From Alphaproteobacteria bacterium (GTDB taxonomy: Bacteria > Pseudomonadota > Alphaproteobacteria > Oceanibaculales > Oceanibaculaceae), in contig JAHJHR010000004.1 in assembly GCA_018823745.1 (NCBI GenBank), positions 62,001 through 126,000 of the forward strand: 64,000 nt of DNA, written 5' to 3'. Shown piece after piece: positions 42,859 through 48,588 of the stretch. Within the stretch, counting starts at the first letter, position 1. Each line of letters opens with the position of its first letter. A program made the position numbers and the translations under genes. The notes below the pieces were generated by a model that worked only from the letters and a program-made list of their open reading frames with translations, did not search any database and was not told the DNA's origin.

Positions 42859-43881
42859 TCATGGCGTTGGGAATCCTGCCGTGCCGTGGATCGCCGGCAC
42901 CGCGCCCTGCTCGACCAGCCACGACCGGCTGAGTGTCATGATCTGGTGCAGCAACGCGCTCTGGTCGGCGCCGAGGCCCATATGGCCACCCTCCAGGGTC
43001 TGCATCGTTTTCGGCTCCGGCGTCAGGTCGCGCATCCGTGCGCTGGACCCGGCCGGGATGATGGTGTCTTCCGCCCCGCTGAGCACGAGGAACTGGCCCT
43101 TCAGATGCGGCAGATGTGCGTCCGGCTCCAGCGGGATCAGCAGCCGGTCGGCGGCGATGCCGATCAGGTCACGCGCCCAGGCGGGCTGCAGGAAAGGGTT
43201 ATGTGCGACAATCTCGCCCAGATCGGTGCCGCCATAGGCCAGGATGGTCCAGCTGACCGTATAGCCTTCAGCCGTCATGACACGCTGCACGCTGGGGGCG
43301 ATTAGCGCGCCCAGTGAATAGCCGAGCAGGCTGACGCGGCTGGTATCGGCCCAGCTCTGCCCGTCGAGCCAGTCCATGAGGGCCTCGACCTGCCCCGGAA
43401 CACTCAAAGCACGGTCGCGCATATCCAGCGACAGGGCATTCAGCCCGCCGCTGATGGAGACATCGCTGGGCAAAGGCCAGTCATAGCCGATCAGCACCGT
43501 GTCACCGGCATCGCGGATCGGGCGGATATTCTCGATCCCCGTGCGCATGCCACCCAGCACGATGATGACCGGCATCGGGGCGCCGCTAAGCTGTTCGGGT
43601 ATCGAGATGGTTGCCTGAACCGTTTTCAGCCGGGGGTCGCTGAATACCAGGCGGCGGTCGATCCGGCCATCGCGGAAGCTCTGGGATTCACGCTCGAAGC
43701 GCAGCGGCCCTTCGGCGCGCGGCAGGGCCTCAAGCGGGTCCTGTTGCGCCAGCCAGACGACCCAGCCGGTCAGCATCAGGAGTACCACCGCGAGGAGGGC
43801 GGCCAGCAACAAGGCGCCATGCCACAGGAACTGGCGCAGCGGCCGTGCCGAAGGAGTGTTTGCTTTTAAGAGATCGACCAT
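42859..43881 (-). CDS. membrane-anchored alpha/beta hydrolase
   Basis: About 340 residues from ATG 43881. A TM anchor (LWHGALLLAALLAVVLLMLTGWVVWLA) comes first, then an alpha/beta hydrolase fold with the nucleophile elbow LLGYSLGAL (Ser), a probable Asp in SGAEDTII and the final His in EGGHMGLG. A GTG at 43998 would add 39 residues that look non-conserved, so the start is uncertain. Substrate unknown. It lies upstream of the GT9 genes on the same strand and could be part of envelope biogenesis, by context only. Confidence 0.8.
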   Translation of the reverse strand: MVDLLKANTPSARPLRQFLWHGALLLAALLAVVLLMLTGWVVWLAQQDPLEALPRAEGPLRFERESQSFRDGRIDRRLVFSDPRLKTVQATISIPEQLSGAPMPVIIVLGGMRTGIENIRPIRDAGDTVLIGYDWPLPSDVSISGGLNALSLDMRDRALSVPGQVEALMDWLDGQSWADTSRVSLLGYSLGALIAPSVQRVMTAEGYTVSWTILAYGGTDLGEIVAHNPFLQPAWARDLIGIAADRLLIPLEPDAHLPHLKGQFLVLSGAEDTIIPAGSSARMRDLTPEPKTMQTLEGGHMGLGADQSALLHQIMTLSRSWLVEQGAVPAIHGTAGFPTP

Positions 43882-43998
43882 TTCAGTTGCGGAATTTGAT
43901 GCCGCATCATGGCGCAAAGGTGGCTGCTCCGCGGTGATGTCTTGGCAATGCGAAGCGGATCGCGGCAAAGCGGTATCGAGTGCCGCACGGACCGGCAC

Positions 43999-44572
43999 CC
44001 GGCCTGCCCCGAAATCGTCATAAAAAACCGGTGATCGGCATTAAGTCGCAAAATTCCCGAAAAAATCAGCGAATAATCAATTTAGAACAAAGACTTGCGC
44101 GTTATTTTCGCTGAGCGTTCGAACAGTCAGCCGCGAATCTGGCGAATCGCCGGTAAGTGCTGGCCTTTCAAGGGAAAAATCGCTCTTGCGTGGTGGGGGC
44201 GATAAGCATATATCGACGGCCAGAGCGTATTCGCACGTACCTATGGCCCAAGTGGTTTCGACCCCAGTGGTTAAGTAACGACGTAACGCGTCTCTTTTGG
44301 CTCACTTGGCGGTTTGCCGTCTGATCCGAAGGGGTCTTGTTATGAATTCGTCCTGTACCACCGGGGGCTGAGACACCCCCCTGAAACGAACCTTGCGCGG
44401 TCCCACAGGCTGATGTCCAGCCGTCGAACCCGCCAAGCACGTCTCACTTCATAGCCTTCTATATACGTCGCCGCGTTGTTTGCGCGGCTGGCGATTAGGT
44501 TCTTGACGCGATCCGTTGGTTTTTCCGGCGGGTCAACGGGGTTGCATCTGCACCCCAAGGGGAATGCTTGTT
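43999..44572 (+). promoter_or_regulatory. structured leader of the ornithine decarboxylase gene (candidate speF-type cis-regulatory RNA)
   Basis: About 570 nt without a normal gene precede the first decarboxylase. It is rich in hairpins: GATCC/GGGTC (about 44322-44336), GGGGG/CCCCC (44363-44367 with 44376-44380), GGCT/AGCC (about 44410-44425), GCCGCG/CGCGGC (44470-44475 with 44483-44488) and GGGGT/ACCCC (44538-44542 with 44552-44556), the last ending directly before the ribosome site AAGGGG (44557-44562). Comparative work has defined a large RNA motif, speF, upstream of this gene family in alphaproteobacteria; identity with it is likely but unchecked. A leader peptide ORF lies at 44342-44371. 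The transcription start is not located. Confidence 0.65.
44342..44371 (+). CDS. candidate leader peptide in the decarboxylase leader
   Basis: Nine codons, MNSSCTTGG then TGA. It has a strong ribosome site, GAAGGGG, 7 nt before the ATG, similar to that of the decarboxylase gene itself. The stop codon lies in the loop of the GGGGG/CCCCC hairpin and the last codons in its left arm, so a ribosome paused at the end would melt it. In enterobacteria, speF is controlled by the peptide SpeFL, whose ribosome arrests with ornithine; this peptide is not similar in sequence, so only the logic is shared. Confidence 0.5.
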   Translation: MNSSCTTGG

Positions 44573-45877
44573 ATGGCTCATACGCTTGATGTCCTGTCCG
44601 ATTTCGCCGTCCGTCGCCGTGCCACCAAGGCCCGCACCGGTACTGGCCGCCTGCCCTCCGTCGATGGCGTCGTCGCGGCCCTGAAGCCGAGCGATCCGCT
44701 GGTCTGCCTGCGCCCGCATCTGCTTGAGGCGACGGCCCGCAGCTTCGTGTCGGTGTTTCCGGGGCGTGTCTTCTATGCCGTGAAGTGCAACCCGGATACT
44801 GCCGTTCTGCGCGCGCTGGCTGCCGGTGGCGTGCAGCATTTCGACGTTGCCTCGCTGACCGAGATCGAGACCGTCCATCGCCTGCTGCCGGATGCCCGCA
44901 TGGCCTTCATGCACCCGGTGAAGCCGCGCGCCTCGATCCGCGAGGCCTATGCGAAATACGGCGTGCGTGACTTCGCGCTGGATTCGGTCGACGAGCTGGC
45001 GAAGATCATCACCGAGACCGGCCATGCCGCCGATCTGGGTCTGTTCGTGCGCCTGAAGCTGCCGAAGGGCAATGCCGTCTATGACCTGTCGGGCAAGTTC
45101 GGTGCGGCACCGGAGCAGGCCATCACCCTGCTGCGCGCCGCCCGCGATGCCGGCAAGCGCGTCGGCCTGTGCTTCCATGTCGGTTCCCAGTGCCTGGACC
45201 CGACCGCCTATGAGCGCGCCCTGGATCTGGCCGGTGAAATCATCCGCGCTTCCGGCGTGACCCCGGACGTGCTGGATATCGGCGGCGGCTTCCCGGTCAG
45301 CTATCCGGATGCCACCCCGCCGGCGCTGTGGGAGTTCATGACCGCCATCAGCCGTGGCTTCCGCCGCCTGAACCTGCCGAAGTGCGAGCTGTGGTGCGAG
45401 CCGGGCCGCGCGCTGGTTGCCGCCGGTGCGTCGCTGGTCGTCCAGGTGCATCTGCGCCGGGGCAACGAGCTGTTCATCAATGACGGCGTCTACGGCACCC
45501 TGTCCGATGCCGGCGTGCCGGCCTTCCGCTTTCCGGTACGGCTGATCCGTCCCGGTGGCGAGAACGTGTCGGAGGAGATGCAGGATTACGTGTTCTTCGG
45601 CCCGACCTGCGACAGTGCCGACCGGATGGCCGGCCCCTTCCCGCTGCCCGCCGATATGCGTGAAGGCGACTGGATCGAGATCGGCCAGCTGGGGGCCTAT
45701 GGCGCCTGCCTGCGCACCGGCTTCAACGGCTTCGACCGGATCGGCCGCCAGGTGGTTGCCGACGGGCCGCTGCTCGCCACGCCGGGGCATCCTGGCGCGG
45801 GCGAGGAAGCAGCACGCTTCGCCGCCCCGCTGCATGTCGCCAATAGCCGGCGCTCGAAGCTGCGGGTGGCCGCGTAA
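44573..45877 (+). CDS. ornithine decarboxylase-type enzyme (PLP fold type III), first copy
   Basis: 434 residues from ATG 44573. PLP lysine 71 (VFYAVKCNPD), then LCFHVGSQ, LDIGGGFPVSY, CEPGRALVAAG and the late active-site Cys in FGPTCDSADRM. These define the alanine-racemase-fold basic amino acid decarboxylases (ODC, lysine/ornithine). It has an extra ~45-residue N-terminus and a ~40-residue C-terminal tail compared with the second copy at 47455. Expected product is putrescine, the substrate of the homospermidine synthase encoded next. The long leader suggests polyamine-type regulation. Strict ornithine specificity is not settled by sequence. Confidence 0.88.
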   Translation: MAHTLDVLSDFAVRRRATKARTGTGRLPSVDGVVAALKPSDPLVCLRPHLLEATARSFVSVFPGRVFYAVKCNPDTAVLRALAAGGVQHFDVASLTEIETVHRLLPDARMAFMHPVKPRASIREAYAKYGVRDFALDSVDELAKIITETGHAADLGLFVRLKLPKGNAVYDLSGKFGAAPEQAITLLRAARDAGKRVGLCFHVGSQCLDPTAYERALDLAGEIIRASGVTPDVLDIGGGFPVSYPDATPPALWEFMTAISRGFRRLNLPKCELWCEPGRALVAAGASLVVQVHLRRGNELFINDGVYGTLSDAGVPAFRFPVRLIRPGGENVSEEMQDYVFFGPTCDSADRMAGPFPLPADMREGDWIEIGQLGAYGACLRTGFNGFDRIGRQVVADGPLLATPGHPGAGEEAARFAAPLHVANSRRSKLRVAA

Positions 45878-45894
45878 ACGACAACGATATATCC

Positions 45895-45928
45895 GCGCGG
45901 TCGGGACAGGAGCCGGCCCGCATTTTTT
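45895..45928 (+). terminator. terminator-like hairpin between decarboxylase and homospermidine synthase genes
   Basis: GCGCGGTCGG and CCGGCCCGC pair over nine positions with one bulged C and one G-U, loop of 8 nt, followed by ATTTTTT. It sits 18 nt after the decarboxylase stop and ends about 20 nt before the next start. It would cut part of transcription and so set the ratio of the two enzymes. Confidence 0.65.
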
Positions 45929-45948
45929 GGAACGGAGACAGACTGAGA

Positions 45949-47379
45949 ATGACGGAATACACGCACCATACCGCTTTCGGCGGGCGACTTGTGATCATCG
46001 GCTTCGGCAGCATCGGCCAGGGCGTCCTGCCGCTGATCCTGCGCCATATCGACATGCCGGTGGACAGGATCGTCATCATCACCGCGGATGACAACGGCCG
46101 CGCGGTGGCCGAGCAGCATGGCGTGGCATTCCGTGTCGAGCCGGTGACCCGCGAGAATTATGAAGATCTGGTCGGCAAGGAACTCACCAAGGGCGATTTC
46201 CTGCTGAACCTGTCGGTCGATGTCTCCTCCATCGCGCTGGCTGAGCTGGCCCGCGACAAGGGTGCCCTGTATCTCGACACCTGCATCGAGCCCTGGGTCG
46301 GTGGTTATACCGATACTTCGCTGCCGCCCTCGCTGCGCTCCAACTATGCGCTGCGCGAGGAATTCCTGGCAAAGCGCCGGCCGGGCAAGAAAGATCCGAC
46401 GGCGGTCATCACCCATGGCGCCAATCCGGGGCTGGTGTCGCATTTCGTGAAGCAGGCGCTGCTGAACATCGCCGCCGATACCGGCGTGAAGACGGCGGTG
46501 CCGGCTGACCGTGCCGGCTGGAGCAATCTCGCCAAGACGCTGGGCGTGAAGGTGATCCACATCGCCGAACGCGACACCCAGGTCTCCGCGACGCCGAAGA
46601 AGGTCGACGAGTTCGTCAACACCTGGTCGATCGACGGCTTCGTCTCGGAAGGCTCGCAGCCGACCGAGCTGGGCTGGGGCACGCATGAGCGGCACTGGCC
46701 GTTCAACGCCAGCCGCCACGCCTTCGGCTCCGATGCGGCGATCTTCCTGAACCGACCGGGCGCCAGCACCCGCGTGCGCACCTGGACGCCGACCGAAGGC
46801 CATTTCCACGGTTTCCTGATCACCCATAGCGAGGCGATCTCGATTGCCGATTATTACACCGTGACCGAGGAACAGGGCACCGCGCGCTCCGTTACCTACC
46901 GGCCGACGGTGCATTACGCCTATCACCCCTGCGATGCCGCCGTCATGTCGGTGCATGAGCTGGCCGGCAAGAACTGGGTGCAGCAGAAGACCCAGCGCCT
47001 GATGGTCGACGAGGTGATCAGCGGCATTGACGAGCTGGGCGTGCTGCTGGCCGGTCACGCGAAGAATGCCTACTGGTATGGCTCGCAGCTTTCCATCGAG
47101 GAAGCCCGCAAGCTGTGCCCGCACAACAATGCGACCTCGCTGCAGGTCACCGTCGCCGTTCTCGGCGGCATGGTCTGGGCGATGGAGAACCCGGAAGCCG
47201 GCATCGTCGAGCCCGACGAGCTGGACTTCAAGCGGGTGCTCGATGTCTGCATGCCTTATCTCGGCCCGGTTGTGGGTGTTTATAGCGATTGGACCCCGCT
47301 GCTGAACCGAGGCGAGCTGTTCGCGGAAGACGTCGATCATGACGATCCGTGGCAGTTCAAGAACGTGCTGGTCGTCTGA
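45949..47379 (+). CDS. hss: homospermidine synthase
   Basis: 476 residues. N-terminal Rossmann motif VIIGFGSIGQGVLPLIL binds NAD; LYLDTCIEPWVGGYTD, THGANPGLVSHFVKQAL and the C-terminal MENPEAGIVEPDELDF are characteristic of bacterial homospermidine synthase. The enzyme joins two putrescines (or putrescine and spermidine) into sym-homospermidine, the main long polyamine of many alphaproteobacteria. It lies between two decarboxylase genes that can supply putrescine. Confidence 0.95.
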   Translation: MTEYTHHTAFGGRLVIIGFGSIGQGVLPLILRHIDMPVDRIVIITADDNGRAVAEQHGVAFRVEPVTRENYEDLVGKELTKGDFLLNLSVDVSSIALAELARDKGALYLDTCIEPWVGGYTDTSLPPSLRSNYALREEFLAKRRPGKKDPTAVITHGANPGLVSHFVKQALLNIAADTGVKTAVPADRAGWSNLAKTLGVKVIHIAERDTQVSATPKKVDEFVNTWSIDGFVSEGSQPTELGWGTHERHWPFNASRHAFGSDAAIFLNRPGASTRVRTWTPTEGHFHGFLITHSEAISIADYYTVTEEQGTARSVTYRPTVHYAYHPCDAAVMSVHELAGKNWVQQKTQRLMVDEVISGIDELGVLLAGHAKNAYWYGSQLSIEEARKLCPHNNATSLQVTVAVLGGMVWAMENPEAGIVEPDELDFKRVLDVCMPYLGPVVGVYSDWTPLLNRGELFAEDVDHDDPWQFKNVLVV

Positions 47380-47454: not shown

Positions 47455-48588
47455 ATGAACGAAAAGATTGCCCGCTTCCTCGCCGAGCGACGAGTCGAGA
47501 CCCCGTTCCTGGTTGTCGACCTGGATGTCGTTGAGGAAAATTACCGGGCGCTGACTGCAGCCCTGCCGGATGCCAAGGTGTTCTATGCCGTGAAGGCAAA
47601 CCCGGCACCGCAGATCCTGCATCGCCTGAACGACCTCGGCTCCAGCTTCGACACCGCGAGCGTGGTCGAGATCCAGGACGCCTTGGCGGCTGGGGCGACG
47701 CCGGAGCGCATCTCCTACGGCAACACGATCAAGAAGCAGTCGGACATCGCCAAGGCGCATGCCCTGGGCGTGAATCTGTTCGCTTTCGACAGCGAGGCGG
47801 AGCTGCGCAAGATCGCCGAGGCGGCGCCGGGTGCCCGTGTGTTCTGCCGCATCCTGACCTCTGGCGAGGGCGCCGACTGGCCGCTATCGCGCAAGTTCGG
47901 CTGCGAGCCGTCCATGGCGTTCGACCTGCTGCTGAAGGCAGCGGATATGGGCGTGGTGCCCTATGGCATTTCCTTCCATGTCGGTTCGCAGCAGCGTGAC
48001 CCGATGCAGTGGGACGCGGCCATCGCGGCGACGGCGAAGCTGTTCCAGGATCTGGAGCATCGCGGCATCATGCTGCGCATGGTCAATCTGGGCGGCGGCT
48101 TCCCGACGCGCTACCAGAAGGACATGCCGACCCCGGCGGAATACGGCAACGCGATCGCTGAATCGATGCGTGCCCATTTCGGCAACCGTATCCCGGAGAC
48201 GATTGTCGAGCCGGGCCGCGGCATGGTCGGCAATGCCGGCGTCATCGAATCCGAGGTCGTTCTGATCTCGCGCAAGTCGGAGAATGATCCGAAGCGCTGG
48301 GTCTATCTCGACATCGGCAAGTTCGGTGGTCTGGCCGAGACGATGGACGAGGCGATCAAGTACCCGCTTGGTTTCGACCGCGAGCTGACCGCCGAGGGCG
48401 AGGCCGTGGTTCTGGCCGGCCCGACCTGCGACAGCGCCGATGTGATGTATGAGAAGGAGGAGTACAAGCTGCCCCTCGACCTCGCTATCGGTGACCGCAT
48501 CCGCATCGGCTCGACCGGCGCCTATACCACGACCTACTCGGCCGTGGCCTTCAACGGCTTCAAGCCGCTGGCGTCCTACTACATCTGA
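47455..48588 (+). CDS. ornithine decarboxylase (PLP fold type III), second copy
   Basis: 377 residues, the usual length for bacterial short ODC/LODC. PLP lysine 47 (VFYAVKANP), ISFHVGSQQRDP, VNLGGGFPTRY, EPGRGMVGN and the catalytic Cys in LAGPTCDSADVM. The ATG follows GGGAGAG by a few nt. It shares the fold with the first copy but is clearly divergent in length and ends, so one may prefer ornithine and the other another basic or modified amino acid. Last gene of the polyamine group; a strong terminator follows. Confidence 0.9.
   Translation: MNEKIARFLAERRVETPFLVVDLDVVEENYRALTAALPDAKVFYAVKANPAPQILHRLNDLGSSFDTASVVEIQDALAAGATPERISYGNTIKKQSDIAKAHALGVNLFAFDSEAELRKIAEAAPGARVFCRILTSGEGADWPLSRKFGCEPSMAFDLLLKAADMGVVPYGISFHVGSQQRDPMQWDAAIAATAKLFQDLEHRGIMLRMVNLGGGFPTRYQKDMPTPAEYGNAIAESMRAHFGNRIPETIVEPGRGMVGNAGVIESEVVLISRKSENDPKRWVYLDIGKFGGLAETMDEAIKYPLGFDRELTAEGEAVVLAGPTCDSADVMYEKEEYKLPLDLAIGDRIRIGSTGAYTTTYSAVAFNGFKPLASYYI

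Follow-up and report, generated by a model that had tools for sequence, protein, structure and literature searches.

A candidate RNA-gated leader ORF with an ar45-like core upstream of a polyamine operon in the marine bacterium Oceanibaculum and related Alphaproteobacteria

The window analysed here, a stretch of 64,000 nucleotides of alphaproteobacterial DNA, contains an operon with the gene order ornithine decarboxylase (ODC) - homospermidine synthase - ODC. It raises the question of how a very short ORF in the leader of the first gene could take part in the control of polyamine synthesis. This first gene (44573-45877; all leader and operon features are on the forward strand) is an ODC of the alanine-racemase fold, as judged by its Pfam domains (PF02784/PF00278) and its match to the PDB lysine/ornithine decarboxylase 5gjm (E 5e-49). 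It is followed by a homospermidine-synthase-like protein with saccharopine dehydrogenase domains (45949-47379; PF03435/PF16653), homologues of which have a core and leader ORF (uORF) of their own in other genomes, and by a second enzyme of the ODC type, recognised by Pfam search (47455-48588). The latter is without its own core; only one copy of the RNA core described below occurs in the whole genome.

Extent and conservation of the leader

Originally, the leader was predicted to be structured and about 570 nt long. The structure is borne out, since the region 44220-44610 folds with -151.7 kcal/mol (z -3.07) and none of 100 shuffled sequences folds as well, but the length has to be corrected. 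A putative promoter at 44186-44214 consists of a -35 hexamer TTGCGT (44186-44191), a spacer of 17 nt and a -10 hexamer TATATC (44209-44214), with a predicted start near 44221. It was not picked up by a generic promoter scan. The same hexamers are located 19-23 nt 5′ of CACGT in Stella, in two metagenome-assembled genomes (L040, L043), in O. pacificum and in others, and conservation within the genus is sharp from 44220 onward. Both the spacing to the core, which is as in related genera, and this edge of conservation indicate a transcript start near 44221. This puts the leader at about 350 nt and leaves 43999-44215 as upstream sequence outside this transcript. The predicted start thus lies upstream of 44371, the position beyond which a start had been named as counting against the original prediction.

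The comparison within the genus comprises four Oceanibaculum genomes, namely the window, O. pacificum (L042) and two further congeners, all of which carry this leader. It is near-invariant at 44220-44239, 44280-44299, 44320-44399 and 44420-44459, and poorly conserved past about 44458-44459. One near-invariant block (44352-44409) is closed by CCUGU (44352-44356) and ACAGG (44405-44409), a stem that shows no covariation because it does not vary. The last conserved stretch, GAACCCGCCAAGCACGTCTCACTTCATAGCC at 44426-44456, is almost identical in the four genomes. Upstream of the promoter, TTTCGCTGAGCGTTCGAACAGTC at 44106-44128 is kept in all four genomes while its flanks are not; it could be an operator, and the divergent gene at 42859-43998 may be its target.

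An ar45-like core and a base-paired start of the leader ORF

The 5′ end of the transcript carries, by alignment, a divergent ar45-like core at 44223-44292, with the sequence GAGCGTATTCGCACGTACC ... GTAACGACG(TA)ACGCGTC and the helices UCG/CGA and UAC/GUA. Within it the ar45 core CGCACGUACC ... GUAACGACG can be recognised, in which the paired UGC/GCA element of ar45 is changed to UAC/GUA; an intermediate UGC/GUA occurs in other lineages. The Rfam model ar45 (RF02347) did not reach its threshold of 40 bits in the window scan, and G000 gave no match either. A blastn search found a 35-nt piece of the core with 91% identity in the genome of an unrelated family (E 5.9e-7), and a pattern scan of GTDB genomes located the core before ODC in Stella (Stella vacuolata) and in the metagenome-assembled genomes L040 and L035. 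With ar45 the window shares the core CGCACGURCC ... GYAACGACG, the position directly 5′ of ODC genes and a U-rich tract past the closing stem. It differs in that the Rfam model reports neither the window nor its relatives, and in that ar45 has so far been described as a small RNA, perhaps trans-acting, whereas in the window an mRNA leader has the core at its 5′ end, with a gated AUG after it.

This AUG belongs to the ORF of nine codons at 44342-44371 which, as originally noted, is present behind a GAAGGGG ribosome site. In the predicted fold, a gate hairpin (44292-44334) pairs the tract CUCUUUUGG (44292-44300) with the ribosome-binding site CCGAAGGGG (44326-44334), which is kept in the four Oceanibaculum genomes, with an apical stem between them; the AUG is predicted to be paired as well, both in the free and in the core-closed ensemble. 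When the leaders were collapsed to 95 representatives (<78% identity, not phylogenetically independent), 81 had a strong, purine-rich ribosome site and an ATG 50-75 nt 3′ of the core, compared with 2.9 ± 1.6 in shuffles; those without are mostly of the rhizobial speF type. Nine codons are few, and RNA structure could by itself hold them in place, so that for the window one might consider an ORF that arose by chance within a structured 5′-UTR of the usual kind, but the excess over shuffles refutes it for the family and makes it very improbable altogether. The short ORF that begins at the gated AUG has 8-60 codons and ends 5′ of ODC, but nine loci have this AUG in the reading frame of ODC itself. 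Of these nine, L070, L071, L076 and L086 have ATC or GTC at the usual ODC start position, which is no start codon, and ODC must therefore start at the gated AUG.

The pairing between tract and ribosome site was followed in 61 sequences; it involves CUCUUUUGG/CCGAAGGGG in the window and UCCUUUUUGG/CCGAGAGGGA in most other leaders. Its helix is 94.9% paired. For the structure as a whole the value is 87.7%, and it falls to 47-73% when the partners are slid. The apical stem covaries, with five pairs changed on both sides. In the tract helix itself only two pairs are changed two-sidedly and seven one-sidedly, and this mostly one-sided variation counts against the reading as a gate. The pyrimidine tract scores 18.65 against its own ribosome site and shuffled tracts score 12.62, while the edge over tracts swapped in from other leaders is modest (18.09 ± 0.22). 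The predicted unpaired probability of the ribosome site is 0.09 in the native and 0.39 in a shuffled context (P 1.7e-13).

A second pairing concerns the start of the ORF. In the window fold, the uORF start region GUUAUGAAUUCGUC (44339-44352) is complementary to GACGUAAC of the core (44280-44287). Across 86 leaders the complementarity of the start region to a 9-mer of the core amounts to 11.29, against 9.13 ± 0.27 for control stretches downstream. The complement of GCAAC in the core falls in codons 2-3 of the ORFs (NUUGC). As this complementarity exceeds that of the controls, the recurrent peptide start M-V-A is at least partly an RNA constraint. Five leaders (L096, L114, L117, L120, L125) are without the helix of U-tract and ribosome site; their uORFs start with GTTGTTGT(T/C), which is complementary to GCAACGACG of the core over 8-9 bp, and they may use this pairing in its place.

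Could the core instead be a free-standing trans-acting sRNA that ends at its own U-tract terminator, with the ORF downstream being incidental? The U-rich tract after the core stem and a terminator-like site called at 44280-44292 fit this explanation, as does the reported expression of ar45 in Bartonella independently of the adjoining speF leader (PMC7717549). However, the core is strictly linked to ODC or homospermidine synthase genes, ribosome site and AUG are kept at a fixed distance from it, and the pairing of the U-tract with that very ribosome site is conserved. Early termination is also compatible with a leader function, and we regard an independent sRNA as unlikely.

We consider it fairly probable that an RNA gate controls initiation at the leader ORF and that translation of this ORF switches the polyamine operon; core, sequestered ribosome site, leader ORF, conserved promoter and polyamine-gene context were all read from the sequence. 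Ribosome site and AUG of the leader ORF would be kept base-paired by the ar45-like core together with the hairpin next to it. Low levels of polyamines, or of a related signal, would open the gate and let ribosomes initiate on the leader ORF. Once they occupy this ORF and its stop codon, they could alter the downstream leader, either by melting the stop hairpin or by excluding Rho or an inhibitory fold; in the window, a change in the fold of 44388-44456 would be a further candidate. As a result, the operon of ODC, homospermidine synthase and ODC would be expressed. The gate would respond to a metabolite of the polyamine pathway, a signal of polyamine or ornithine type being proposed solely because of the genes controlled. 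Translation of the leader ORF would act positively on ODC: the same gate opens onto either the leader ORF or ODC itself, and an open gate would most simply mean more enzyme.

Selection on the leader peptide and the region of its stop codon

In the window, the leader ORF starts with AUG, encodes MNSSCTTGG* and stops 201 nt before the ODC start; two congeners have MIASCTTGG*. ATG, ribosome site and six of the nine codons are kept in the genus, as the original prediction demands. A synonymous-only change of the nine codons, for which a test had been proposed, was not found in the alignment of congeners: three substitutions were seen, in codons 2-3, and each of them is non-synonymous. In the window's ODC type, pN/pS of the short uORFs is 0.88. 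The longer uORFs of family f61 behave differently, with substitutions at codon positions 1:2:3 in the ratio 37:40:99 and a pN/pS of 0.35 (1.5 and 1.3 in the other frames). One diverged pair in another family gave 0.32, and a third family 0.62. In the peptide FGRENPLSS, six of nine codons differ silently between L063 and L073. Many leaders share a C-terminal motif of the type PSS[LIM], with endings such as PSS, SSM or TSI. The length of the uORF is held despite sequence drift, with 11 codons in most leaders of the Azospirillaceae type; leaders of the homospermidine synthase type have 14 codons in seven cases, and two of these seven contigs stop short of the gene. Leader peptides had no match in Pfam and no credible NCBIfam family, apart from one weak L32-like match below the cut-off. 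The C-terminal Ser of PSS/TSI is nearly always encoded by AGT in L063, L064, L066, L077, L114 and relatives; in such GC-rich genomes AGC, TCG or TCC would be expected, which points to a constraint at the codon or RNA level beyond the peptide.

Conservation at the peptide level is seen in the longer uORFs of related lineages (0.35, 0.32) but not in the short type (0.88), to which the 9-codon ORF of the window belongs. These comparisons support a functional peptide in the former and a functional ORF only in the window. What counts for the window ORF is probably that, or where, it is translated, and not the peptide made. In lineages with long peptides, the conserved PSS-type C-terminus suggests an added step of ribosome stalling.

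The region of the stop codon bears on the switch that was originally proposed. The uORF stop codon is indeed located in the loop of a hairpin (44363-44380) formed by GGGGG (44363-44367) and CCCCCC (44376-44381), which is invariant in the four genomes. As a family-wide feature a stop hairpin was rejected: a broad search gave 16.2 against 16.5 in controls, and in a narrow search of the ODC1 type the hairpins around the stop did not significantly surpass those at other places in the leaders (P 0.12). The C-run (44376-44381) had been supposed to pair also with the ODC ribosome site. The C-run does not vary, but this site does: it is AAGGGG here, AAGGGAG in O. pacificum and TTGGGAG in the remaining two species. 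The four G-C pairs of the window drop to three in the congeners, so the pairing is not conserved and was rejected. In the same way, the likeness between the ribosome sites of uORF and ODC is present in the window, but as a feature of this one genome.

A switch in which translation of the peptide frees the C-run to mask the ODC site is therefore without comparative support. In its full form, a nascent peptide of nine residues would sense ornithine or a polyamine and stall the ribosome. The leader peptide SpeFL offers a precedent, and the related lineages show both selection at the peptide level (0.35, 0.32) and shared C-terminal PSS/SSM/TSI motifs. For the window, however, we think such an arrest peptide improbable, given short ORFs without peptide selection, exclusively non-synonymous changes in the genus, the loss of a pair between C-run and ODC site, and a length that would hardly reach into the exit tunnel.

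A further explanation dispenses with both peptide and metabolite: an RNA-binding protein could recognise the core, with the uORF as a mere gated spacer. A short and almost invariant core (CGCACGURCC/GYAACGACG) would suit a protein, and in vitro no binding of ornithine, putrescine or spermidine was found for the speF leader of A. tumefaciens (PMC1273637), a result that also speaks against the metabolite-responsive gate, although these binding tests covered the rhizobial leader type only. On the other hand, none of the loci is linked to a candidate protein, and the conservation of uORF length and peptide implies more than a spacer; we give protein control little weight.

Distribution and relation to known ODC leaders

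A regulated leader ORF before ODC is well supported in Alphaproteobacteria far beyond the genus. The covariance model R1 was built from 13 core sequences of the window type, one of them the window, so that its score on the window is by construction. It detected the core in 70 of the 385 alphaproteobacterial genomes surveyed and in 46 genera. In families looked at more closely, it was present in 48 of 49, 39 of 41, 37 of 39 and 7 of 7 genomes. The matches in the 70 genomes are nearly always 5′ of an ODC or homospermidine synthase gene, and in at least six genomes a copy stands directly 5′ of the latter. A second copy of core, gate and uORF (mostly 14 codons) directly before homospermidine synthase was seen in L085, L090, L093, L095, L098 and L103; none of 10 homospermidine synthase leaders reached any Rfam gathering score. 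ODC homologues were found in 138 of 386 genomes. Among sixty regions 5′ of ODC, most of them taken from genomes that R1 had not matched, a few had further divergent cores and many had none.

The original prediction referred to the speF motif, described by Corbino 2005 (PMC1273637), which lies upstream of this gene family. Scanned with the Rfam model (RF00518, threshold 37 bits), 43500-46200 gave no match at E <= 10; the genome and G000-G003 were likewise without one, and membership of the leader in speF was rejected. A TPP-like reading of GGGGGCUGAGACACCCCC was likewise discarded (no Rfam match at E <= 10). The window leader has the position of speF, upstream of a COG0019-type ODC of the same family in Alphaproteobacteria, and speF lies immediately 3′ of ar45 where both match. 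It differs in that the rhizobial block ACUGAAGAGGCACACC..UUGCC occupies the place of ribosome site and AUG uORF in the window type. An ORF at the invariant UUG of the rhizobial type found no support, since the frames differ between relatives. In two other alphaproteobacteria (L007:1408-1654, L008:1386-1628), speF follows directly downstream of ar45, both being contiguous parts of one leader in which the ar45 3′ stem GGGC is succeeded by UUUUUU; the 'ar45 sRNA' may accordingly be an attenuated ODC leader.

We know of no function assigned to alphaproteobacterial speF or ar45 since their first description. A bolder reading, which we hold to be less likely than not, is that a widespread alphaproteobacterial element seen so far as fragments (ar45 'sRNA' and speF leader) could be a polyamine-pathway sensor gating a leader ORF, with the ORF of many lineages encoding a second sensor, a PSS-type arrest peptide. 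If true, a riboswitch-like gate would act in series with a nascent-peptide switch, common to ODC and homospermidine synthase operons. Independently of this reading, our comparison gives the speF and ar45 elements a common anatomy of core, hairpin masking the ribosome site, gated AUG and leader ORF, and adds an uncatalogued family of leader peptides before polyamine operons. The regulated step in most lineages is predicted to be initiation at the leader ORF and not at the ODC start.

Parallels are SpeFL in enterics and polyamine-responsive uORFs in eukaryotes. SpeFL (enterobacterial speF) is a translated leader ORF controlling an ornithine decarboxylase, as is proposed for the leader ORF of the window; the ODC belongs to a different fold family and the window peptide has nine residues. 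To our knowledge, no RNA gate of the window's kind has been described in the SpeFL leader. The odc1 motif of sphingomonads (uORF-25-1; Brewer 2021, PMC8632094) likewise precedes ODC and combines a short uORF with a ribosome site sequestered in a stem. It has two UUG starts two nt apart and an invariant 11-residue peptide overlapping the ODC start, whereas uORFs of the window type start with AUG, vary in length, end 40-240 nt before ODC and follow an ar45-like core; with AUG, nine codons and 201 nt distance, the window uORF does not have the odc1 arrangement. The AUG-uORF architecture is absent from Rfam 15 and was found neither in PMC1273637, PMC7717549 and PMC8632094 nor elsewhere in the literature searched.

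In L080 and L113, a core with gated AUG precedes genes other than ODC or homospermidine synthase, encoding a class I glutamine-amidotransferase-like protein and a 136-residue protein without known function. ODC leaders in L262, L290 and L301 have a variant core, CCCACGTGCC ... GGTAACGAGGTAACGG, with the ODC start directly after it.
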